Source of the DNA: Rhizobiaceae bacterium
Lineage (GTDB): Bacteria; Pseudomonadota; Alphaproteobacteria; Rhizobiales; Rhizobiaceae
Length of the DNA: 11,068 nt
Direction of reading: 5' to 3'
Assembly (NCBI GenBank): GCA_028865845.1
Contig: JAGWJK010000065.1
Span: 1-11,068, forward strand
The notes under the pieces were generated by a model. That model was not told the DNA's origin. It saw only the letters and a list, made by a program, of their open reading frames with translations, and searched no databases. The first letter of the stretch is position 1, and each line of letters opens with the position of its first letter. This document shows positions 1-10,711 of the stretch, one piece after another. Position numbers and translations under genes: made by a program.

Positions 1-395
1 AGCACAAGCAAGATCAGATAGGCAAGCCCTTGGCCGAGGCAGGATGCGCAAAGTGCCAGTCCAAGCGCTTCATTGTGTTTGCCGGCCTGTGCCATGGGGA
101 AGCCGTCGAAGGTGGTCCCGACGGCCGCAGCCGAGCCTGGAACGTTCAGCAGAACTGCCGGGATGGCCACCCCGAACAGTGCGCCGCCATACATCGCCGT
201 CATGAAGATCAGCGCCTGCAGGAAATCCATGTAGGGTATAAGCGGAAGGCAAATCGCCAGTGCCATCGAAGTGGTCAAGCCCGGCACCGCATGAACCGCG
301 AGGCCGATCAGGATTCCGGGTATCACGACCATCCAAGGCTCCCAGGAACTACCCAGGAGATGGAATGCCGACATGAGTGCGTCGAAATCGATCAT
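1..395 (-). CDS. tctA: TctA family tripartite tricarboxylate transporter large membrane subunit (partial, N-terminal 131 residues)
   Basis: This is the start of the large permease subunit of a tripartite tricarboxylate transporter (TTT family), which imports citrate-like or other carboxylates across the inner membrane together with TctB and a periplasmic TctC receptor. The reading frame starts at ATG 395 and runs off the left edge. Visible family hallmarks are the first hydrophobic segment ending in a Pro-Gly-Leu turn (about residues 25-42), the MYGGALFGVAIPAVLLNVPG stretch (about 68-87) and the FDGFPMAQAGKHNEALGLAL segment (about 95-114), where TctA proteins have a Gly-tyr-Pro-Met-Ala-like motif. 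The ATG overlaps the tctB stop by one base (TGATG), so translation is probably coupled. No TctC gene is visible; it may lie beyond the left edge. The substrate cannot be read from this fragment. Confidence 0.9.
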   Translation of the reverse strand, partial: MIDFDALMSAFHLLGSSWEPWMVVIPGILIGLAVHAVPGLTTSMALAICLPLIPYMDFLQALIFMTAMYGGALFGVAIPAVLLNVPGSAAAVGTTFDGFPMAQAGKHNEALGLALCASCLGQGLAYLILLV

Positions 396-865
396 CAGTT
401 GTCTCCTCCGAAGAAGAAGAGCGGCAGCGGTGTATAGAGGATCTGGCTGAAGCAATAGATCGCCAGGCCGCAGAAAATCGCCGGAATCAAGATCAACGGG
501 ATCAGGCGTCGTTCGCCGAGAAACAGCAGCATGCCGCCGATATAAAGAAGACATGCAACGTCGAAACCGACCGTCGGCCCGACGATGACGAAAGCGATCA
601 GCATCGCCATTGTGCCGGCAATCTTCGGGCCTTTACCCTTTTCGAGCTTGCCGCGTTCGCACAAGACTTCGGCCTGGCCGGCCTTTAGACCGTGGAAGCA
701 TCCGAACGCTACGACCAAATACAGTATGAGGCCGCCGATGGTCGCCGGCACGATCATGATGAGATTAGCGACGGTCTGCTGAGCACGCCAGGCGTCGATC
801 CCGTACCAGATGCACCAGGCGGCAATCGCGGTCGCGAAGGCAAGATGAGGGAGATCGACGGCCAT
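395..865 (-). CDS. tctB: TctB family tripartite tricarboxylate transporter small membrane subunit
   Basis: This encodes the small membrane subunit of a TTT-family carboxylate importer. The 156-residue product is very hydrophobic, with about four to five membrane segments (roughly residues 6-24, 36-58, 83-118 and 120-142). It ends in a Leu-Pro-Leu stretch (TPLPLFFFGGDN) typical of TctB, and the length fits the family. I chose ATG 865 because it is preceded by a GGGAG ribosome-binding sequence four bases away. An upstream in-frame ATG at 931 would give 178 residues and overlap the OCD-like gene by 16 bases, but it has no good ribosome-binding site. The gene follows the OCD-like gene by 50 bases and overlaps tctA by one base. 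Recognition rests on hydropathy, length and the adjacent TctA, because TctB sequences are poorly conserved. Confidence 0.85.
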   Translation of the reverse strand: MAVDLPHLAFATAIAAWCIWYGIDAWRAQQTVANLIMIVPATIGGLILYLVVAFGCFHGLKAGQAEVLCERGKLEKGKGPKIAGTMAMLIAFVIVGPTVGFDVACLLYIGGMLLFLGERRLIPLILIPAIFCGLAIYCFSQILYTPLPLFFFGGDN

Positions 866-915
866 ACGTCTCCCTGCAATGCTGATCACAGGCAGAGGAG
901 CGCGTTCTGGCTGGT

Positions 916-2016
916 CTAGTTCTTTATGCATTGGACAAACCATTCTGTCGGCAATTCGCGACCGAGACCGCGGGCCTTGGCTTCGCGATAGGCAAGGGCG
1001 CCGCAGGCGGCGAACTGGATGCCCCAGTTGCCAACGGGCCGATATTGCGTGATCTGATCCGGGCTGGTCCGTCCGTTGGCCTTGCCGGAAATAACGTCGG
1101 CATAGAACGGCCATACGCGCGTGGAGCTCTGCTTACGCTTGACCGGCGGCAGGCGGCGCTGCTCCTCGGGACTTCCGCCAACGAAAGCGCTGCGGCTATG
1201 GCCGAGATCACGGCGAAACCAGCCACTCTCCGGCATATCGAAGGCCTCTTCGCCCTGACGCACGACGAGGTCGATACGCTCCTCGCATTCCGGCGCAAGA
1301 TCGAGAGGGCCGATTCCGACAACATGCATGCCCGGCTTTAGCCATTCGGCCTCCACGACGGGCGACATGCTATCGGTTGCAGCCCCTAGTATGTCAGCGC
1401 CCTCGGCAGCCTCGTACGCACTGTCGACCGCATCCATGCGAATGCCAAGCTTTTCGGCCATCCGCTGGGCAAACGCGCTGCGGTTACTTTCGCTGCGACT
1501 GTACACGCGCACCGTCTCAATCGGCCGGACAGCGACCATGGCTTCCAGCAGCGTTTCGGCCATGCCGCCTGATCCGATCAGCCCGAGTTGCCGCGACTCG
1601 GGCCGTGAAAGCAGTTTTGCGCCGAGGCCGGCGGCAGCGCCGACGCGCATATGCTGCAGATGCCCGTCGTTTATGATCGCCAGCGGTTCGCCGTTTGCCG
1701 TGCTGAACAAAAGCACCAGGCCGCAATATGTGCCGGGCTGGATGCAATACTTCTTTTCAGACGAACTCCCATCAGCTCGACTCGGCCAGCTCATGACATC
1801 GGATTTCAATCTGACGGCGTGAACACCTTCTGCGGCGCCCTCGACAGATCCAAAACGGTAATAGGAATCTTCGTCAGCCGCTGGCATGAAGGTATCGAGG
1901 CGCGGCCGCGAAACCGATGCACCGATCAGCACGCCCGCAAAGGCACGTTCCTGAATGTCGATGCAATCCTTGGTCGTCAGTACCTTGGCGACAACGTCGT
2001 TGTCGATCATCAGCAT
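916..2016 (-). CDS. Ornithine cyclodeaminase / mu-crystallin family protein
   Basis: This is a 366-residue NAD(P)-binding protein of the ornithine cyclodeaminase (OCD)/mu-crystallin superfamily, whose members interconvert imines, amino acids and N-substituted amino acids. The Rossmann dinucleotide loop is GSGGMA (residues 148-153). Ahead of it lie the conserved Lys in the HAVRLKSD stretch (Lys71) and the ANGEPLAIINDGHLQHMRVGAAAG block (108-130) with Arg124. The tail GLGRELPTEWF is a form I associate with an OCD subfamily that is not a proven cyclodeaminase. Where ornithine cyclodeaminases carry a catalytic Asp after the Gly-Ala of the second NAD segment, this protein has GIGPLDLAPE (234-243), so that position is altered. 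ATG 2016 was chosen because GGAGG lies nine bases upstream; ATG 2010 is an alternative. It overlaps the PrpD-like gene by seven bases. Family assignment is firm; ornithine as substrate is unlikely and the true substrate is unknown. Confidence 0.85.
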   Translation of the reverse strand: MLMIDNDVVAKVLTTKDCIDIQERAFAGVLIGASVSRPRLDTFMPAADEDSYYRFGSVEGAAEGVHAVRLKSDVMSWPSRADGSSSEKKYCIQPGTYCGLVLLFSTANGEPLAIINDGHLQHMRVGAAAGLGAKLLSRPESRQLGLIGSGGMAETLLEAMVAVRPIETVRVYSRSESNRSAFAQRMAEKLGIRMDAVDSAYEAAEGADILGAATDSMSPVVEAEWLKPGMHVVGIGPLDLAPECEERIDLVVRQGEEAFDMPESGWFRRDLGHSRSAFVGGSPEEQRRLPPVKRKQSSTRVWPFYADVISGKANGRTSPDQITQYRPVGNWGIQFAACGALAYREAKARGLGRELPTEWFVQCIKN

Positions 2017-3416
2017 GTGGGGTGGCCTCCGGTGCTCGCAAGGTCGAGGAGCGCGGACACCGTCGCAGCGTCCAGTTCCTCGATCTGGTCGCAGCCTTCT
2101 ACAAATCGATCGATGCTTTCGGGGGCCAGCCATGTGGCCAGGCAATCGCGAGCCTTGGCATGATGCTCCTCTTCTGTAATCGGCGGTGCACCCCAGGAGC
2201 CGCGTGGTCTCTCGCAACGGGTGGAAATGAGTTGCCCATCGTTCATCTCCACTTCGAGATCGAGGTGACGACCGTCGGTGTAGATGCTCGGGATCTCACG
2301 CGAAAGCGTCACGCGCATCTTGGCAAGGAGCGCCTGTATCTCCGGCCTCGCCAGCATATCGTCGGTGAAGCTCGCAAGACCGACATTGCCGTCCAGCAAG
2401 GCCGTCGCGGCGGTGTATTGCAGGCTGAATTTCCCGTCGAGGCCCGAGGCAGGATGAGGACGATCACTCGATGGCACGTCGGCCGCCTGGATGCGAATCG
2501 CCTTGATGGCGGTGATATTGGATATTTGCGGACGGGCCATCAGCGCTGCGGTGATCGCGTAATGGGTCGAGAATTTCGCCGGGAAGATCTTGATCGCATA
2601 GCTCGGATCAACGACGCGGAAAGGTTTTCCGAAGTTCAGAAGCTCGTCGCCATTAAAACCACGCGGATAGAAAGCCTCGCCGTAACTCTGGGGAGCGGGG
2701 TCGAAAAGGGTTTTGGTGCCGGTAAACCCGCGCCGGGTTAAAAGTGCTGCTTCGAGACCCATCGCGGCCGCATAGGCGCAATGGCTGGATTTGGTCATCG
2801 TGCCGAGATTGGTGAAAAGGCCGCCGCAGCGGGAGCCTGCGATGCCGATGGCATTGGCATATTGCCCGGCGTCGAAGTCGAGGAGATAACCGGCAGCGAC
2901 AGCTGCGCCGATCGGTCCAACGAAGCCCGGCGGATGAAAATGCAATTCATGTGATTGCAGCTTACCGGCGGCCTCGCGCAGACGCCCCTGGATCTCGATG
3001 CCGAGGACCATGGCTTTTAGCATTTTAGCGCCACTAGCGCCAAGCGCCTGCCCGAGCGCAAGGGTAGGGGCAAGCGCCGGAGAGAGGGCATGCGTGGCCG
3101 GAAGCCACATGGGCTCGAAGTCAAGGACGTGCATCGATGCACCGTTGACTAGCGCCGCAGGTACTGTGCCGAGTCTCCTGTTCAACCCGAGCACGCTGGC
3201 GCTGGTGCCCCCGCCATTGCCAGTCAGCGGATCCTCGAAATGCTCAAGCAGCACTCGCGGCGCCTCTTCAAGGCGCGCGCCGGCGACGGCGACGGAAACG
3301 CCGTCGAGGAAAAGCTGGCGCGCCGCGCGCAGAACCTCTCCACTCAGCGGAACATCCGCCGCGGCGACAATCTCGTTGCATATGCGGGAGGTTAGAGTAG
3401 GACGTGTTGAGGTCAT
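2010..3416 (-). CDS. MmgE/PrpD family protein (2-methylcitrate dehydratase-like)
   Basis: A 468-residue member of the MmgE/PrpD superfamily, which includes 2-methylcitrate dehydratase, cis-aconitate decarboxylase and iminodisuccinate epimerase. The length is close to E. coli PrpD (483). Family landmarks are LDF...PATH (residues 98-109), LALGQALGASG (119-129), GFVGPIGAAVAAGYLLDFD (164-182), the GTMTKSSHCAYAAAMGLEAALL block with Lys209 (205-226), GFTG (230-233), and KIFPAKFSTH with Lys276 and His285. Asp99, His109, Lys209 and His285 line up with the catalytic-site residues I recall for cis-aconitate decarboxylase. The usual D-F-D-D-T run is instead D-F-E-P-M (99-103), so the substrate may differ from the named enzymes. 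The ATG overlaps the aconitase stop by four bases (ATGA), and the downstream OCD-like gene overlaps by seven. The family is certain; the reaction is inferred. Confidence 0.9.
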   Translation of the reverse strand: MTSTRPTLTSRICNEIVAAADVPLSGEVLRAARQLFLDGVSVAVAGARLEEAPRVLLEHFEDPLTGNGGGTSASVLGLNRRLGTVPAALVNGASMHVLDFEPMWLPATHALSPALAPTLALGQALGASGAKMLKAMVLGIEIQGRLREAAGKLQSHELHFHPPGFVGPIGAAVAAGYLLDFDAGQYANAIGIAGSRCGGLFTNLGTMTKSSHCAYAAAMGLEAALLTRRGFTGTKTLFDPAPQSYGEAFYPRGFNGDELLNFGKPFRVVDPSYAIKIFPAKFSTHYAITAALMARPQISNITAIKAIRIQAADVPSSDRPHPASGLDGKFSLQYTAATALLDGNVGLASFTDDMLARPEIQALLAKMRVTLSREIPSIYTDGRHLDLEVEMNDGQLISTRCERPRGSWGAPPITEEEHHAKARDCLATWLAPESIDRFVEGCDQIEELDAATVSALLDLASTGGHPTC

Positions 3417-6055
3417 GCTGCTACCAACTGATTGAGTACATAAGGAAGGATACCTCCGTTGCAGACCCATTCGGCTTCTCGCCTGGTGTCGACACGAGAG
3501 AGGAGATGGATCGTATCGGTGTCTCCACCCGGCCTGTGAAGTATCACCGGCACAAACGCGCCGGGGATAAGAACCGCGGAGATATCGGCAATATCGAAAC
3601 TTTCCGACCCGGTAAGGCCAAGTGTCTTCCGGTTCACACCGGGCGGGAACTGCAGGGGCAGAACACCCATTCCGACGAGATTGGAGCGATGAATGCGTTC
3701 GAAGCTCTCGGCGATGACGGCCCTCACGCCGAGCAGGCGGGTACCCTTTGCCGCCCAATCGCGCGACGAACCGCAGCCGTAATTGCGACCAGCAACGACC
3801 ACGACAGGCCGGCCTTCCGCCGCATATCGTTCCGACGCCTGAAATATCGTCATGATTTCGCCGTCGGGCTGATGGCGTGTGTAGCCACCTTCTCGCCCAG
3901 GAAGCATCTCGTTCTTCAGTCGGAGATTGGCGAATGTTCCGCGGACCATGACCTCGTGGTTGGCGCGGCGGCTGATGTAGGTGCCGAACTTCTCCTGTGC
4001 GACCCCATGTTCGGACAGATAGATGCCGGCATCGGTATTGGCTGGAATGAGGTTTCCGGGAGAGATGTGATCGGTGGTGATATCGTCGCCGAGTAGAAGC
4101 AGGATACGAGCGCCTTCGATCGGCGCATCCGTCTCGCCAGGCAGATCGAGAAAGGGCGGAGCACGCAGGAACATGCTCTTCTCATTCCAAGGAAAGACGT
4201 TTTCCTTAGCGAGCTGAATACGCGACCATTCCGGTCCAGGATCTGCAAAAACATCATAGGCGTCGCGGAACAGATCCTCGGTCAGAGAGGCAGTGACAAC
4301 TTCCTGAATCTCTGCATCCGTCGGCCAAATGTCTGCAAGGTAGACGGCGCCTCCGGAGAGGTCTTGCCCAAGAGGCGAAGCGGTCAGGTCATGCAGGATT
4401 GAGCCGGCCAGAGCGTAAGCGATCACCAGCGGCGGCGATCCGAGGAAGGTGCCGCGTACAGACGCGCTGAGGCGTCCGTCGAAGTTGCGGTTGGTGGATA
4501 TGACGCCTGCCGTTACCAATTTGCGGTCGGCAATTTCAGCCGCTACATCGGCTGCAAGGGCGCCGGCGCTGCTGCCGCAGCTCATGCAGCCGAAGCCGAC
4601 GACGTTAAATCCCAGCGCGTCAAGCGCAGGGCTGAGACCTGCTTTGTCGAGCATGGCGGGCACTACGCGTGAGCCGGGCGAAAACGAGGTCTTGATCCAC
4701 GGTTTTGCTCGCAGGCCGCGTGCAACGGCGTTGCGGGCAAGCAGGGCAGCGGCAACCACCTGATGGGGGTTTGCCGTGTTCGTGCAGGAGGCGATCGAGG
4801 CAATGGCGATATCGCCGTGCTGCAAAGGCCGTGTGGTATATCCAACGGCGGGAGCCGGGGCTTCAGCCGTGCCCAAATCCGCGTAGGTACTGCGAAAGCG
4901 ATCTGGTACATCGGCGAGTGACACGAGGCTTTCAGGCCGCGAAGGTCCCGCCAAGCTCGGCTCGACGGTGGAAAGATCAAATTCCAGCAGCGTCTGAAAT
5001 GAGGGCTCATCGGTACGCCACAAACCCTGCGTTTTGGCGTAGCATTCGACAAGGTCGACATGCTCGGCGCTGCGGCCAGTCTGCCGGAGGTAGCGCAATG
5101 TCTCGGCGTCGACCGGAAAGAACCCCATCGTTGCCCCGTATTCCGCCGCCATATTGGCAATGGTAGCACGATCTGGAAGCGTTAGATGCTCCAGCGATGG
5201 ACCACAAAACTCGACGACGGCTGCCAGCACGTCGGAAGCGCGCAGAAAGCGCGTGAGCGACAAGACCATATCGGTGCACATCACTCCGGGTCGAGGGGTA
5301 CCGACGAGACGGCAGCCGATCACCCGCGGTGTCTGCAGGCCCACTGGCTGGTTGAACATCGCCGTCGCCGCTTCGATTCCGCCGACGCCCCAACCAAACA
5401 CGCCCATGCCGTTCACCATGGGCGTGTGGCTGTCCATCCCCACCAAGCTGTCGGGGAAGGCGATCCGACCTCCGGCGTACGGCGCGACTGAAACGACTTG
5501 CGCAAAATATTCTATATTCACTTGATGCACGATGCCGTTGCCAGGCGGCACAACGCGGAGGTTTTTGAATTGCGACATCGCCCAACGGACCACCCCGTAG
5601 CGCTCCTTGTTGCGCTCAAGTTCGTTGGAGAGGTTTCTGGCAAAGGCATCCGTCGTGCCGGTGTAATCGGCGCGCACGGAGTGGTCGATGACCATTTCGG
5701 TCGGCACCATGGGATCGACACGACGTGGATCGAGGCCTCGCGCGACCATCGCGTCGCGCATCGAGGCCAGATCGATCAGAAGCGGAACGCCGGACGAGTC
5801 CGGCATAAGGACGCGACCGGGATGGAAGGCCAGTTCACGGCTCAACGCCTCTTCTGCAGGCCAGTGGGCAAGTGCGGCAATGTCTTCGCGCGAAACGGTA
5901 ACATCGTCCTCATGGCGAAGCAGGTTTTCGAGAAGCACCTTCAGTGACACCGGCATCTTTTTGAGGTCGATGTCGAGCGCTTTGCCGAGCGCGTCCAGGC
6001 TGTGAAAGTGAATATCCGCAGTCAGGGTGCTGAGTGTTCGGAACGAATTGCCCAC
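3413..6055 (-). CDS. Aconitase-family hydratase, single-chain AcnA/AcnD type, with divergent active-site motifs
   Basis: An 880-residue aconitase-superfamily protein of the AcnA/IRP architecture, with domains 1-3 followed by a linker and a C-terminal swivel domain. It should use a [4Fe-4S] cluster to isomerise or hydrate a tricarboxylate by a dehydration-rehydration step. Cluster ligands are Cys424 (SCTNT), Cys490 and Cys493. Other hallmarks are VIDHSV (122-127), PPGNGIVHQVN (170-180), DSHTPMVNGMGVFGWGVGG (208-226), TTDHISP (660-666), RRANHEVMVRGTFAN (696-710) and YGCGSSRDWAAKG (759-771). Two spots differ from canonical AcnA as I recall it: GCMSCGSSAG (489-498) instead of GCTTCIGNSG, and GDDITTDHISPGNLIPA (656-672) instead of GDSVTTDHISPAG. 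I place the start at GTG 6055 because AAGGAG lies seven bases upstream. It follows the lyase gene by 16 bases and overlaps the PrpD-like gene by four. It is probably a dedicated paralogue, not the housekeeping aconitase. Confidence 0.92.
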   Translation of the reverse strand: MGNSFRTLSTLTADIHFHSLDALGKALDIDLKKMPVSLKVLLENLLRHEDDVTVSREDIAALAHWPAEEALSRELAFHPGRVLMPDSSGVPLLIDLASMRDAMVARGLDPRRVDPMVPTEMVIDHSVRADYTGTTDAFARNLSNELERNKERYGVVRWAMSQFKNLRVVPPGNGIVHQVNIEYFAQVVSVAPYAGGRIAFPDSLVGMDSHTPMVNGMGVFGWGVGGIEAATAMFNQPVGLQTPRVIGCRLVGTPRPGVMCTDMVLSLTRFLRASDVLAAVVEFCGPSLEHLTLPDRATIANMAAEYGATMGFFPVDAETLRYLRQTGRSAEHVDLVECYAKTQGLWRTDEPSFQTLLEFDLSTVEPSLAGPSRPESLVSLADVPDRFRSTYADLGTAEAPAPAVGYTTRPLQHGDIAIASIASCTNTANPHQVVAAALLARNAVARGLRAKPWIKTSFSPGSRVVPAMLDKAGLSPALDALGFNVVGFGCMSCGSSAGALAADVAAEIADRKLVTAGVISTNRNFDGRLSASVRGTFLGSPPLVIAYALAGSILHDLTASPLGQDLSGGAVYLADIWPTDAEIQEVVTASLTEDLFRDAYDVFADPGPEWSRIQLAKENVFPWNEKSMFLRAPPFLDLPGETDAPIEGARILLLLGDDITTDHISPGNLIPANTDAGIYLSEHGVAQEKFGTYISRRANHEVMVRGTFANLRLKNEMLPGREGGYTRHQPDGEIMTIFQASERYAAEGRPVVVVAGRNYGCGSSRDWAAKGTRLLGVRAVIAESFERIHRSNLVGMGVLPLQFPPGVNRKTLGLTGSESFDIADISAVLIPGAFVPVILHRPGGDTDTIHLLSRVDTRREAEWVCNGGILPYVLNQLVAA

Positions 6056-6071
6056 GTCGCTACTCCTTAAC

Positions 6072-6989
6072 TCAAGCCTCGCGCCGGATGGGCGTGAAGG
6101 TGTTTTGGAGTTCTTCGAGCTGCGTCAGACCCATCAGATCGTTGAGATCGTCGAAGGGCACGAGCAGATCGGGCCGCTCAATCACTCTCTCCTCGCGGAT
6201 GGATTGACCAAATATGTCGAGCGCGTTCTTCATGCCTTGGATAGCTGCCGCGGTCAGCATGCGCGGATAGGATACGGCCTTGACCCCCATATCTTCCAGC
6301 TGGCGGGCCGACAAAAGAGGAGTGGTCGACCGCTGGCGAATGCCGAAGCCCATGTTGACGGAAAGAGGCTTGCTGACATTGCGTGCGACCGTGGCAATGT
6401 CCTCGGCGGTACGCAGCGCGTCCGCAAACAACATATCGGCGCCGGCTTCAGCATACAGGTTCAGGCGGCGGATGGCTTCATCCAGGCCATAGATCGCCGT
6501 CGCGTCCGTGCGGGCCTTGATCACGAAATTTGGATCCTTGCGGGCTTCGGCCGCCGCCTGGATCTTCTCGACATGTTCTTCGGCGGAGATCACCTGCTTG
6601 CCTTCCATGTGGCCGCAGCGCTTCGGCCAGACCTGATCCTCGATCAGCAAGCAGGCGATGCCGGCACGCTCAAATCCCTGGACGGTAAAATAGACGTTGA
6701 GTGCATTGCCGTAGCCGGTGTCGCCATCGGCTGAAAGGGGGATGGTGCTGATGGCCGCGAGTGCAGCGGAAGCACGAACGTTTTCTGCATATCCCATAAT
6801 GCCGACATCGGCCCAGCCGAGATTGCTCTCACTTAGTCCCGCGCCGGTGATATTCGCCGTCTTGTAGCCCATTTGCTCGACGAGCCGGAGGCTATAGCCG
6901 TCGAACACGCCAGGGCATATGAGGATGCCGGGCTCGGCCAGCAGCGTGCGCAACCTCGCGGCTGCAGTTGGTGATTGCGGTGCAGTCAT
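6072..6989 (-). CDS. Isocitrate lyase/PEP mutase family lyase (2-methylisocitrate lyase-like)
   Basis: A 305-residue member of the ICL/PEP-mutase superfamily, most like 2-methylisocitrate lyase (PrpB), which cleaves methylisocitrate into pyruvate and succinate. It has the metal-binding loop DGDTGYGN (residues 88-95), the lyase signature KRCGH with catalytic Cys125 (123-127), IKARTDA (157-163) and the AGADMLFAD segment (182-190). The Cys marks it as a C-C lyase rather than an oxaloacetate decarboxylase or PEP mutase, which lack it. After Pro-Leu-Ser, where PrpB has NITEFG, this protein has VNMGFGIRQR (211-220), so the substrate pocket differs. ATG 6989 was chosen for its GGGAGG ribosome-binding site five bases upstream; an ATG at 7013 lacks one. 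It is the first gene of the operon, divergent from the GntR gene. Dimethylmalate lyase or another 2-hydroxy-acid lyase remains possible. Confidence 0.88.
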   Translation of the reverse strand: MTAPQSPTAAARLRTLLAEPGILICPGVFDGYSLRLVEQMGYKTANITGAGLSESNLGWADVGIMGYAENVRASAALAAISTIPLSADGDTGYGNALNVYFTVQGFERAGIACLLIEDQVWPKRCGHMEGKQVISAEEHVEKIQAAAEARKDPNFVIKARTDATAIYGLDEAIRRLNLYAEAGADMLFADALRTAEDIATVARNVSKPLSVNMGFGIRQRSTTPLLSARQLEDMGVKAVSYPRMLTAAAIQGMKNALDIFGQSIREERVIERPDLLVPFDDLNDLMGLTQLEELQNTFTPIRREA

Positions 6990-7033
6990 TGTATCCTCCC
7001 GATAGCTGGGCATATTCTACTGTCATCCTAATT

Positions 7034-7115
7034 TGTCAACACTTTTGGGGTGATTCATTCGAAAACTGATGATAAATACGCATTCAAGCATAGAAGTGTC
7101 AACACAATGGGGGTG
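7034..7115. promoter_or_regulatory. Divergent promoter region with two operator-like direct repeats
   Basis: Between the operon and the regulator lie two copies of a 19-base element, 7034-7052 and 7097-7115. They match at 16 of 19 positions: TGTCAACAC, four variable bases, then GGGGTG. Each core contains a short dyad (TGT-CA-ACA in the first; GTGT-CA-ACAC in the second), as expected for a dimeric GntR-family repressor. The copies are 63 bases apart, six helical turns. On the minus strand each core supplies a TTGACA -35-like hexamer (7039-7034 and 7102-7097) pointing toward the operon. Matching -10 boxes are only weak (for example TATTTA at 7078-7073). The second copy ends two bases before the regulator's ATG, so its GGGGTG tract is also the likely ribosome-binding sequence. 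Repeats are seen directly; the operator role is inferred. Confidence 0.6.
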
Positions 7116-7117
7116 GC

Positions 7118-7789
7118 ATGGAAACGACGGACAAGGAAATGACGTTGGCGGAGCAGGTCTACCGACGCCTCAGCGAGGCCATTCTCGGTGGCGAGCTCGC
7201 TCCAGGCTCGAAGATCAGCGAGCCGGCGTTGGCGCGCGCTTATGGCGTTAGCCGCGGCCCGCTTCGCGAAGCGCTGCATCGCCTTCAGGAAAGAAAGCTC
7301 ATTACGAGATCCGCCAATCAGGGGCCCCGGGTCATCAAGCCAACGGTCGAGGCTCTAGCTGAGCTATTCGTCGTTCGCGAGGCGCTTGAAGGCATGGCCG
7401 CGCGAATGGCGGCAATCAACGCCACCGAGGACGATATCGCCCGGCTTCGTGCTGCCGTTACCGGACCGGGCGCCGGCTCGAACGGCACCCAGGACACGAC
7501 TGACGGCGCTTATGAACAGCTTGACCAAGATTTTCACGTCGCCATCGCCCAATGCAGCCGAAATCCGATGCTGATCGACTTGCTCTGCGGCGAACTCTAT
7601 CCCCTGCTGAAACTTTACAGGGGTACTCCGGTCGGTCATAGGCCGCGCAGGCTGCGAGCCGTTGACGAGCATCGTCGTGTCGTTGACGCGATCGAAGACA
7701 AGGATCCGGAGCTGGCGGAAATGTTGATGCGGCGGCATATTCTTGCCGCCCGTCGCCGGCGGACCGATGCCCTCGAGGGGAATCGGTAG
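7118..7789 (+). CDS. GntR family transcriptional regulator (FadR/FCD subfamily)
   Basis: A 223-residue regulator with an N-terminal winged helix-turn-helix and a C-terminal FCD ligand-binding domain. The DNA-binding part shows the classic GntR pattern: EQVYRRLSEAILGGELAPGSKISE (12-35), recognition helix region ALARAYGVSRGPLREALHRL (37-56) and a wing ending near Ile73. The FCD domain covers about residues 78-215 and retains the metal-binding Asp/His set: Asp136 and His140 (LDQDFH), His185 (DEHRRV) and His207 (RRHI). FCD regulators usually sense small carboxylic acids, which fits the neighbouring carboxylate operon. The gene is divergent from that operon and shares its promoter region. A GGGGGTGG tract sits just before ATG 7118. 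It most likely represses both itself and the operon until the pathway substrate or an intermediate binds; this is inferred from context. Confidence 0.92.
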   Translation: METTDKEMTLAEQVYRRLSEAILGGELAPGSKISEPALARAYGVSRGPLREALHRLQERKLITRSANQGPRVIKPTVEALAELFVVREALEGMAARMAAINATEDDIARLRAAVTGPGAGSNGTQDTTDGAYEQLDQDFHVAIAQCSRNPMLIDLLCGELYPLLKLYRGTPVGHRPRRLRAVDEHRRVVDAIEDKDPELAEMLMRRHILAARRRRTDALEGNR

Positions 7790-7947: not shown

Positions 7948-8446
7948 ATGACGAATCTCAGCGTTCACCAGCATGGTGCCAATGGAAAAAGGGGGCTCTG
8001 CCGATCCTTGCATGGGACGTTCCCGCGGCGGCCTGACAACGAAGATCCATGCACTTGTTGATGCAGATGGCAGGCCGGTTAAGCTGGATCTCACAGCAGG
8101 TCAGGCCGCTGACGCGCTCATGGCAGAAAAGCCGTTGAGTGACCTGCAGCCTGGCGCGACAGTTCTGGCTGGCAAAGCTTATGATACCGACGCAATTTGT
8201 AACTTTGCCAAGCAACGGAAATGCTGGGCGAACATCTCCGCGAAAGCCACTCGCAAACAGATCTTCAGTTTTAGCAGTTGGGCCTATCGTCAGCGCAATC
8301 TCGTGGAGCGTTTCTTCAATCGCATCAAGCAGATGCGCGGCTTGGCCACACGTTATGATCGCCGCGCAGACAATTACCTTGCGGCACTCAAACTCGCAGC
8401 CACAAGGATATGGATCGCATCAGCCATGAGTCCGCAGCCTAATTAA
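7948..8446 (+). pseudogene. IS5-family transposase remnant, frameshifted and catalytically dead
   Basis: This is the C-terminal half of an IS5-family DDE transposase. One frame from 7948 carries SVHQHGANGK, the end of the N-terminal part. The next frame from about 7973 carries the C-terminal part: GRSRGGLTTKIHALVDADGR, then VLAGKAYDTDAI, then RQRNLVERFFNRIKQMRGLATRYDRRADNYLAALKLA, with a stop at 8446. The two parts are out of frame at an A5G5 tract (7986-7995). The catalytic Glu (LVERFF) is present, but the second catalytic Asp, normally in the LAD-x-x-YD motif, is Gly (codon GGC for GAC). The N-terminal half with the first Asp is missing. IS427-group elements can use programmed frameshifting here, so the frame break alone is not proof of decay, but truncation plus the lost Asp is. 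I could not find terminal inverted repeats. Confidence 0.85.
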
Positions 8447-8688: not shown

Positions 8689-8988
8689 CTACGCGGCGTG
8701 CTGGAAAGGTTCAATTGCTGCAAGTGCGTCTGCAAGAGCTTCATTGGACTCGTCCAGATCATACTTTGATTGCATGTTCATGAACCAGCGCGGGTCGACA
8801 TTCAGGTATTTGCCGAGCCGTAGTGCGATAGGAGCCGTAATTCGATGCTCACCTCGGCAGATGTCGTTCAGCTGACTGCGTGAGACGCCGATTGCCTTGG
8901 CAGCCGCGTAAACGGAGATGCCCATGGGATCAAGGAATTCTTCTTTCAGCACTTCACCCGGATGAGGAAGGGGGATTTCTCTAGCCAT
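8689..8988 (-). CDS. higA: HigA family antitoxin (XRE-type helix-turn-helix)
   Basis: A 99-residue antitoxin of the HigA/VapI group. It opens with the typical IPLPHPGEVLKEEFLDPMGIS segment (about residues 5-25). The helix-turn-helix follows (about 27-66): YAAAKAIGVSRSQLNDICRGEHRIT, then APIALRLGKYLNVDPRWFMNMQ, both highly characteristic. It neutralises the HigB ribonuclease and, with the toxin, represses the operon. The ATG at 8988 follows AAGGAG by six bases, and that sequence begins within the higB stop (TAAGGAG). The genes are nine bases apart and surely co-transcribed. The toxin-first order is normal for HigBA and unlike most type II systems. Family assignment is firm. Confidence 0.93.
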   Translation of the reverse strand: MAREIPLPHPGEVLKEEFLDPMGISVYAAAKAIGVSRSQLNDICRGEHRITAPIALRLGKYLNVDPRWFMNMQSKYDLDESNEALADALAAIEPFQHAA

Positions 8989-8997
8989 AACTGCTCC

Positions 8998-9282
8998 TTA
9001 TCCGTGGTAATCCACAAACTCTACATAATACGCATCACCATCGAACCATTCGAAGCAAATGCGCCATTGATCGTTGACCCTTATCGAATACTGTCCGGAT
9101 CTGTCGCCGTCCAACCGTTCCAGCATATTGCCCGGAGGCACGCGAAGATCGTCGAGCCTGGTCGCAGTATCGATAAGGAAGAGCTTTCGTACCGCTCTTT
9201 TGGCAACATCAGCCGGGACACGCCTTGGCCTCTCCCCGTCGAATAGCCTTTGTGTATCATTGTCACGAAAGCTCAATATCAT
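8998..9282 (-). CDS. higB: HigB family toxin (RelE/ParE superfamily mRNA interferase)
   Basis: A 94-residue RelE-fold toxin of the HigB group, which cleaves mRNA in a ribosome-dependent manner. The sequence keeps the family pattern throughout: ILSFRDNDTQRLFDGERPRRVP at the start, AVRKLFLIDTATRLDDLRVPPGNMLERL in the middle and the conserved GQYSIRVNDQWRICFEW...YYVEFVDYH end. The length is normal and there is no sign of truncation, so the toxin looks functional. I start at ATG 9282; a TTG at 9288 would add two residues. There is no strong ribosome-binding sequence, which is common where toxin synthesis is kept low. The palindrome at 9290-9308 begins eight bases upstream. It is co-transcribed with higA. 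The pair probably stabilises this accessory segment or came in with it; that role is inferred. Confidence 0.93.
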   Translation of the reverse strand: MILSFRDNDTQRLFDGERPRRVPADVAKRAVRKLFLIDTATRLDDLRVPPGNMLERLDGDRSGQYSIRVNDQWRICFEWFDGDAYYVEFVDYHG

Positions 9283-9289
9283 ACGCAAA

Positions 9290-9681: not shown

Positions 9682-9763
9682 TGATCTCAATCTTACTCTC
9701 CGTATGCACGAAATATTTACGGGGAAACTAGTAGGAGTCAAACTTAAGTTTAGAGAGCGAAGC

Positions 9764-10711
9764 ATGAGCGAAACTTCGAGAGCGCGATATTTTCTGATGG
9801 GCCTTGTCTTGGCTTGTTACCCATCCGCTTTGGTCCTAGCGCGCGCGGTCGGTCTTAAAATCGATCCGATGGAATTCATCAAATTTTCCGCCTTCGCCCT
9901 CGCGGTCGTGGCTGTTTTCAGTCCCATCTGTTCGTGGCGCAAAATCCCTTCTCTTCGATCGGTAGTAGAAGCGATCGGCTTCGGCATGTTGATGACGGGG
10001 CCAATCATAGTGATGGCTTACGTGGCGGCGATGGCCAACCAGCCGCTGCAGGACCAGCGCCTGATAGCGATGGACCAAAATCTCGGTATCGATTGGCATG
10101 CGTTGATTGCGTTCATCGATGCGCATGCCATGCTCGCGCAGACGCTGTGGATCGCTTATAGGACGTTCGGTATGCAGCTTATCTTGTTGCCGGTCGTCCT
10201 CGGTGTATCGGGGCAATCAGCCCGCGCATATCAGATGATGGCCGCCTACGGGCTCATCTGCATCTTTGCCAATATTATCTCAATCTGGTATCCGGCGCTC
10301 GGAACCTACACTGCGCTCTCGATCGACATTCATCAATTCAAGAATATAGACGGCTCTTTGGGGGTGGATTTTCCCGCGCAACTTCTGGCGGTCAGAAACG
10401 ATCCGAATTTCGTTCTCGATCGCGGTCATGTCAGCGGCATCATTTCATTTCCATCCGTCCATGCCGCGGTCGCAATCCTTTGTGCCTGGGCGGCGTGGCC
10501 AATGAAGTTGTTTCGCTGGCCCGTCCTCATCCTGAATGTACTGATGTTATCTTCAGCCGTCCCCGAAGGCGCGCACTACGTTGTTGACCTGATTTCCGGA
10601 ATTGGCGTTGCGGGGTTCGTTGTTGCGCTCGTTCTGTGTGTAACACGCCCCTACGCGATGGCAAAAGAGCACGCTATGGCGAGCGACCCGATCATACTCG
10701 AACAATCGTAA
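9764..10711 (+). CDS. PAP2-superfamily integral membrane protein (phosphatase or phosphotransferase, AUR1-like)
   Basis: A 315-residue polytopic membrane protein with roughly six to seven hydrophobic segments (about residues 8-30, 38-58, 68-90, 128-150, 157-178, 225-246, 251-268 and 276-294). Two PAP2 catalytic motifs are clear: SFPSVHAA (228-235, His233) and GAHYVVDLISG (269-279, His271 and Asp275). The NLGIDWHAL segment (106-113) is common in this branch. The spacing and Ser-Phe-Pro-Ser-Val-His form resemble PAP2_3/inositol phosphorylceramide synthase-like proteins rather than BacA-type phosphatases. The usual first motif (Lys-x6-Arg-Pro) is not evident. Likely substrates are lipid phosphates or a lipid headgroup transfer in the inner membrane; none can be named. 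ATG 9764 begins a typical short cytosolic start with a weak GA-rich ribosome-binding sequence; ATG 9704 would add 20 residues without a ribosome-binding site. It appears monocistronic. Confidence 0.85.
   Translation: MSETSRARYFLMGLVLACYPSALVLARAVGLKIDPMEFIKFSAFALAVVAVFSPICSWRKIPSLRSVVEAIGFGMLMTGPIIVMAYVAAMANQPLQDQRLIAMDQNLGIDWHALIAFIDAHAMLAQTLWIAYRTFGMQLILLPVVLGVSGQSARAYQMMAAYGLICIFANIISIWYPALGTYTALSIDIHQFKNIDGSLGVDFPAQLLAVRNDPNFVLDRGHVSGIISFPSVHAAVAILCAWAAWPMKLFRWPVLILNVLMLSSAVPEGAHYVVDLISGIGVAGFVVALVLCVTRPYAMAKEHAMASDPIILEQS

Follow-up and report, generated by a model that had tools for sequence, protein, structure and literature searches.

We analysed an 11,068-nucleotide stretch of DNA from a Rhizobiaceae bacterium (GCA_028865845.1, contig JAGWJK010000065.1; hereafter, the window), which carries an operon of six genes encoding a lyase, an aconitase, a protein of the MmgE/PrpD family, an ornithine cyclodeaminase/mu-crystallin (OCD) family protein, and TctB and TctA, the two membrane subunits of a tripartite tricarboxylate transporter. 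With genes for a transporter, a hydratase, a lyase and an enzyme of the dehydratase fold in one operon, and none for a synthase, the gene set suggests import, isomerization and cleavage of a tricarboxylate. Our leading reading, to which we give not quite an even chance, is that the operon serves to break down a 2-substituted citrate or aconitate that the tripartite transporter would bring in from outside the cell. The cluster is a new variation on the known dehydrate–hydrate–cleave theme.

All six genes are open, lie on the minus strand and encode products that score above the Pfam cut-offs of their families. The lyase (6072–6989) belongs to the isocitrate lyase/phosphoenolpyruvate (PEP) mutase family (PEP_mutase, 162 bits) and is of a type marked by an NMGFGIR loop and an F[AP]DA motif; an alternative TTG/ATG start upstream, at 7013, is possible. 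It is followed by an AcnA-like Fe–S aconitase with a GTG start (3413–6055; NCBIfam aconitase_1, 1068 bits), the MmgE/PrpD family protein (2010–3416), the OCD protein (916–2016; OCD_Mu_crystall, PF02423, 135 bits), the small membrane subunit TctB (395–865; 34 bits, cut-off 29) and the large membrane subunit TctA (1–395; 100 bits), which is cut by the contig end. From lyase to TctA, the gaps are +16, −4, −7, +50 and −1 bases, the last being the one-base overlap between the TctB stop and the TctA ATG, which starts at 395. A GntR/FCD transcriptional regulator (7118–7789, plus strand; GntR 66 bits, FCD 101 bits) is divergent from the operon. The co-directional genes and gaps described by an earlier, sequence-only reading of the window are borne out by the reading frames, the start and stop positions and the Pfam matches.

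Position 1 of the window coincides with the first base of its contig (C1156), and the source genome (6.1 Mb, 82% complete) is divided among 1324 contigs. Searching this genome with the TctC of a related locus (L005; the protein matches PF03401) identified a second contig, C326 (L097, 6073 bp), the right end of which carries the remaining part of TctA and then a TctC that is 76% identical to the query. A gene for a thiamine diphosphate (ThDP) enzyme follows tctC on the same strand (3897–2218 of L097), and then one for an MFS transporter. No end overlap between C1156 and C326 was found, and about 27 TctA residues fall between them, as judged by eye against the protein of a second related locus (L002). 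We take the contigs to be adjacent because of the continuity of the gene and the gene order in L002 and L005, and C326 is therefore likely to continue the operon to the left. The tctC gene that the sequence-only reading had suggested seeking beyond the window is thus present on the probable next contig and, if the adjacency holds, TctA and TctB of the window and TctC of C326 form a complete tripartite set. The original observation is in this way confirmed and extended by tctC, by the ThDP enzyme and by a pair of operator-like sites described below, the contig join being deduced from gene continuity and gene order.

No citrate synthase lies between the GntR gene and tctA. A query with Escherichia coli PrpC matched all four prp control operons and gave no match in the window, in L097, in 79 loci collected around relatives of the MmgE/PrpD protein, or in the further loci L098, L134, L135 and L150; the absence of PrpC from the cluster and the presence of a carboxylate importer, as first proposed, therefore stand (PrpC query with controls; Pfam TctA and TctB). 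A prpC gene directly after tctA, which the sequence-only reading had named as evidence that would speak against it, is ruled out given the inferred join: tctC and the ThDP enzyme gene occupy that place, with no PrpC match. Three further contigs hold citrate synthase matches, and the genome may encode a PrpC outside the cluster. No gene carries the label prpF in L002–L005, L007, L008, L097 or L098. An external substrate is probable because the gene set lacks the synthase needed to make such a compound, and the proposal that the substrate arrives from outside stands in outline, with the importer located in the operon itself.

The 79 loci were retained from 110 confirmed stretches in a pattern scan of a genome collection with the PrpD-like (MmgE/PrpD) protein. 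Six of them (L002, L003, L004, L005, L007 and L008) combine lyase, aconitase (above 300 bits), PrpD-like and GntR genes, as does L098. Four (L002–L005; type I) have the order of the window, gntR divergent from lyase–acn–prpD, with enzymes 68–84% identical to the three of the window; they come from Achromobacter sp. HZ34 (L002), Acidisphaera sp. L21 (L003) and two Rhodospirillales metagenome-assembled genomes (L004 and L005). The OCD gene comes next in L003, L004 and L005 and is absent from L002; TctB, TctA and TctC genes are found in L002 and L005. Type II comprises L007 (Ancylobacter), L008 (Microvirga) and L098 (a genome of the same family as the window), at 44–56% identity, with TctC–acn divergent from lyase–prpD–gntR–Gfo/Idh–TctAB and without OCD. 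In two looser loci, L134 and L135, lyase, aconitase and GntR are joined to other enzymes. The PrpD-like gene is rare, being found in 2 of 394 sampled genomes of the family, 1 of 397 of the order, 2 of 385 of the class and 1 of 398 of the phylum (E ≤ 1e-115, or 1e-100 in one sample; the samples overlap, and the source genome is counted each time). The synteny put forward by the sequence-only reading therefore holds in part: enzymes and transporter occur together in close relatives, whereas the set is rare overall. The contexts of other PrpD-like loci (L006 and L009–L011) gave no clue. Among the individual loci, L135 (1–9737) holds aconitase, GntR, MmgE/PrpD, flavoprotein, ABC transporter and NMGFGIR lyase genes in one stretch, the flavoprotein giving a weak match to TcuA, tricarballylate dehydrogenase (158.6 bits, cut-off 369). 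Beside the Acidisphaera type I cluster of L003, another MmgE/PrpD gene (3121–4584) encodes a protein with a signal-like N terminus and adjoins a sugar-transporter-family gene.

The gap between gntR and the lyase gene contains two operator-like sites of sequence GTGTTGACA, at 7097–7105 and 7034–7042 on the minus strand, 63 bp apart. The sequence occurs nowhere else in the window, where 0.04 matches would be expected, and none of 200 shuffles contained two. In the window and in L002–L005, in all of which the GntR orthologue is divergent from the lyase gene, this gap holds two copies of [GA]TGT[TC]GACA in the same orientation, 62–63 bp apart, separated by poorly conserved bases. The GntR protein presumably binds these two TGTYGACA sites. 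The pattern occurs at 0.055 per kb over 143 records, overlapping ones included. In L134 it precedes both gntR and the lyase gene; in L135 it lies in the acn/gntR, gntR/prpD and pre-lyase gaps, yet there are 12 matches in 18.5 kb and several fall inside genes. L008 and L098 have no match to it; sites resembling CTGTCAACAGT or CTGTTGACAGT can be picked out by eye in the gaps of type II. A sigma-70 promoter at the second site was considered and rejected: TTGACA is present, but the promoter scan scored none.

The aconitase passes the AcnA model (cut-off 945) and reaches 757 bits against the AcnD model (cut-off 1419.85). It keeps the Fe–S cluster and catalytic motifs and departs from canonical AcnA at three positions, which we take, from mitochondrial aconitase, to line the pocket: PDSSG replaces QDFTG, CG replaces CI after the CxxC, and Y[IV] replaces YG before RR. 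The residues at these positions are P, G and I/V here, Q, I and G in AcnA, and H, N and A in AcnD. Among the best 120 of 8000 scored homologues, CG is found in 119 and Y[IV].RRAN in all 120, and the first position is P in all 116 that the pattern matched (4 of the 120 were unmatched); the L134 and L135 aconitases have CS in place of CG. In a quick IQ-TREE phylogeny with long branches, aconitases of types I–III group with AcnD and a Labrenzia sequence (L143), separately from six rows named AcnA (SH-aLRT 92, which does not reach the starred level), and forcing types I–III into one clade is rejected (p-AU 0.012). FastTree had grouped type I together with AcnA, and type II at another place in the tree; a convergence of the pocket in types I and II was dropped, as this split was not upheld by IQ-TREE with more rows.

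These changes make plain citrate a less likely substrate. On the alternative view, plain citrate, aconitate or isocitrate would be imported and split to glyoxylate and succinate, making the operon a dedicated, transporter-linked form of glyoxylate-type cleavage. This would suit an aconitase that passes the AcnA model, a lyase of the isocitrate lyase/PEP mutase fold family and the existence of TctCBA–GntR–acnA clusters without a lyase, as on an Agrobacterium pAt plasmid. We nevertheless consider it unlikely, because the three altered positions are ones that canonical AcnA rows conserve, because a fragment of a housekeeping AcnA is present elsewhere in the genome, and because the adjoining ThDP enzyme keeps the usual Glu, presumably unlike glyoxylate carboligase. 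For comparison, the accessible part of one study gives kcat/Km values for AcnA and AcnB of 3.4 and 1.9 on 2-methyl-cis-aconitate versus 170 and 123 on cis-aconitate, and its authors suggest a different active site in AcnD (PMC5690661).

The MmgE/PrpD protein is not a true PrpD: it scores 32.3 bits against the curated PrpD model (cut-off 458), which the E. coli PrpD control passes at 928.9. Among solved structures it is nearest to iminodisuccinate epimerase (IDS-epimerase), at 175 bits, and to cis-aconitate decarboxylases, at 172 bits, the best 2-methylcitrate dehydratase structure reaching 34.5 bits. Five of the seven residues that we take to form the decarboxylase active site (D93, T97, H103, H159, K207, K272 and H277) are kept; T97 is replaced by M and H277 by K in all eight type I and type II proteins. 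No second MmgE/PrpD match was found in the genome, at its 82% completeness. The protein could accordingly be an epimerase, inverting a stereocentre in the imported acid or in a substituted succinate, or a decarboxylase turning an aconitate into an itaconate, rather than a dehydratase. The structural scores and the retained residues favour this alternative, and there is a precedent: as far as the available text of PMC12290011 goes, one bacterial member of the family works as an (S)-(R)-methylsuccinate isomerase, and its authors see in the known family members a shared 1,4-dicarboxylate substructure and an enolate mechanism. Set against it are the M and K substitutions and, for a decarboxylase, the fact that aconitase and lyase would be superfluous after decarboxylation; we judge it about as improbable as the import of plain citrate.

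The lyase is likewise not PrpB. It reaches 229.5 bits against the PrpB model (cut-off 354.4; E. coli PrpB control, 457.8), and although it keeps KRCGH its active-site loop differs: all type I, type II and L134/L135 lyases carry NMGFGIR.R.TTP and F[AP]DA, as against N[IL]TEFG and F.EA in PrpB (the loop of one PrpB, that of L106, was not matched by the pattern used). In a quick tree that left out the L002 lyase, the NMGFGIR-type lyases lie within a 13-row clade (starred at 98), and the three PrpB rows fall outside it. The prp operons compared (prpBCDE of E. coli, L099; prpBC–acnD–prpF, L102 and L106; prpC–acnD–prpF–lyase, L107) share with the window a lyase of the isocitrate lyase/PEP mutase family, an aconitase-family enzyme and, in prpBCDE, an MmgE/PrpD-family enzyme; they differ in carrying prpC and in having no TctABC genes in the stretches seen, and the window differs in that its lyase and MmgE/PrpD protein fall below the PrpB and PrpD cut-offs. 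The lyase-family gene that follows prpC–acnD–prpF in L107, an Acidovorax plasmid (6761–7621), clusters with the lyase of Labrenzia, away from PrpB.

The claim that the trio corresponds to the dehydrate–rehydrate–cleave sequence of the methylcitrate cycle is thus unsupported as worded and is retained only as a conjecture, because lyase and PrpD-like protein miss the curated cut-offs by a wide margin and the latter is closer to cis-aconitate decarboxylase and IDS-epimerase. The sequence-only interpretation is in sum partly supported, in outline and not in its enzyme names. Could exogenous 2-methylcitrate itself be the substrate, the operon acting as a scavenging half of the methylcitrate cycle that yields pyruvate and succinate? 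The three enzyme types match the cycle, the aconitase is altered at the AcnD positions and PrpC is absent; but with E. coli PrpB and PrpD passing the models that the window proteins miss, a lyase loop unlike that of PrpB, and a dedicated ThDP enzyme that pyruvate would not need, we rate this slightly below the two preceding alternatives.

The ThDP enzymes of L097, L098, L008 and L005 score 849.2, 887.6, 913.4 and 722 bits against PRK08199 (NF006052, cut-off 539), and the gene adjoins the cluster in four of the eight type I and type II loci (the source genome, L005, L008 and L098). The OCD protein passes PF02423 but reaches the cut-off of none of 15 NCBIfam models; its nearest solved relatives are pyrroline-2-carboxylate reductase and alanine dehydrogenase. 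Its gene is dispensable, because it is absent from L002 and from type II clusters. A nitrogen-containing polycarboxylate substrate, with OCD as the central reductase or deaminase, is for that reason improbable, the least credible of the alternatives, despite the resemblance of the MmgE/PrpD protein to IDS-epimerase, the action of OCD relatives on imines and the replacement of OCD by a Gfo/Idh oxidoreductase in type II, and the homologues of aconitase and isocitrate lyase are not known to act in iminodisuccinate breakdown.

Returning to a 2-substituted citrate or aconitate from outside, the scheme that we infer, for every reaction, its direction and its substrate, is as follows. TctABC would import the tricarboxylate, the MmgE/PrpD protein would dehydrate it to a substituted aconitate, and the altered Fe–S aconitase would rehydrate this in the isocitrate position. 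Cleavage by the lyase would then yield succinate, or a substituted form of it, together with a 2-oxo acid to be processed by the ThDP enzyme and the OCD protein, and the GntR protein would control the divergent promoters through its two TGTYGACA sites. Consistent with this are the importer genes lying with three enzyme genes in one operon, the altered aconitase, AcnD departing from AcnA at the same three positions, the low kcat/Km of AcnA and AcnB on 2-methyl-cis-aconitate (PMC5690661), and also the paired sites in five gaps, the ThDP gene adjoining four of eight loci and the recurrence of the four-gene set without prpC. Several observations weigh against it. Of the 79 loci, 66 give no lyase match and 13 give one, so that most relatives of the PrpD-like protein sit in other contexts. 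L003 has no Tct gene and L004 has TctC without TctA or TctB within the stretches examined, and those of L002, L003, L004 and L007 hold no ThDP enzyme. OCD relatives act on C=N bonds, which would leave the OCD protein with no obvious task here. Plain aconitase activity is possible, as the AcnA cut-off is passed, and the methylsuccinate isomerase precedent means that dehydration by an MmgE/PrpD protein is not a given and that an epimerase role is possible.

If the scheme is right, methylcitrate-like cleavage would be fed from outside and not by a synthase, with aconitase and lyase clades of its own and a shared operator pair. It would also provide a substrate class for MmgE/PrpD, isocitrate lyase/PEP mutase, PRK08199 and TctC proteins, which now bear generic or misleading names such as aconitate hydratase AcnA or isocitrate lyase/PEP mutase family.

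Among the papers listed by our searches of the open-licence PMC literature, we found no description of this cluster. Among the closest layouts are those on two plasmids, from Labrenzia (L150) and Agrobacterium (pAt, L101), which share TctC, TctB, TctA, GntR and aconitase with the window and differ in having neither MmgE/PrpD nor OCD. The Labrenzia plasmid (7610–15058) has lyase–gntR divergent from tctC–tctB–tctA–acnA and nothing else of the set; its aconitase carries PDSSG and YIGRRGN, and its isocitrate lyase/PEP mutase family gene encodes a lyase of another clade. This suggests that import, hydration and cleavage may be the core of the system, a parallel that is loose because of that difference in clade. 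The pAt stretch (7847–14589; TctC–TctB–TctA–GntR–acnA) contains no lyase; in its aconitase, H and I occupy two of the three positions, and the stretch is possibly a citrate or aconitate uptake unit.

Two pathways resemble the operon in their chemistry. A degradation cluster for itaconate and methylsuccinate is likewise catabolic, and its MmgE/PrpD protein has a branched dicarboxylic acid as substrate; it differs in using CoA-ester chemistry and a citramalyl-CoA lyase, and aconitase and TctABC are not among the genes named in the accessible part of the report (PMC12290011). In the akc pathway of Aspergillus niger, homologues of 2-methylcitrate dehydratase and cis-aconitate decarboxylase act on alkylcitrates and alkylaconitates. 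Such acids were obtained from the culture medium when a strain was made to overexpress; a strain overexpressing a regulator released hexylaconitic acid. That pathway is biosynthetic and includes a citrate synthase, the available text mentioning neither importer nor lyase (PMC7338620).

By analogy, alkylcitric or alkylaconitic acids made by fungi, for example hexylcitrate and hexylaconitate, might serve as growth substrates for bacteria that carry the operon, a speculative extension to which we give a low probability and whose sole ground is the release of hexylaconitic acid by A. niger (PMC7338620, in the part available). The MmgE/PrpD protein and aconitase would then form an alkylisocitrate, the lyase would break this into succinate and a 2-oxo acid of medium chain length, the latter would be decarboxylated by the PRK08199 enzyme, and OCD or Gfo/Idh proteins would be the redox partners. 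Such an operon would mirror the akc pathway in the catabolic direction, and the PRK08199 family and the NMGFGIR lyase clade would gain their first role.

No RNA families or tRNAs were found in the window. Just past the GntR gene lies a DDE transposase fragment (7973–8446, plus strand), which may be a trace of earlier mobility next to the operon. Further right, on the minus strand, a HigB-like toxin (8998–9288; PF05015, 79 bits) adjoins an HTH_3 protein (8689–8988), and together (8689–9288) they look like a type II toxin–antitoxin pair; a PAP2 superfamily membrane protein (PF14378, 121 bits) is encoded at 9704–10711 on the plus strand.

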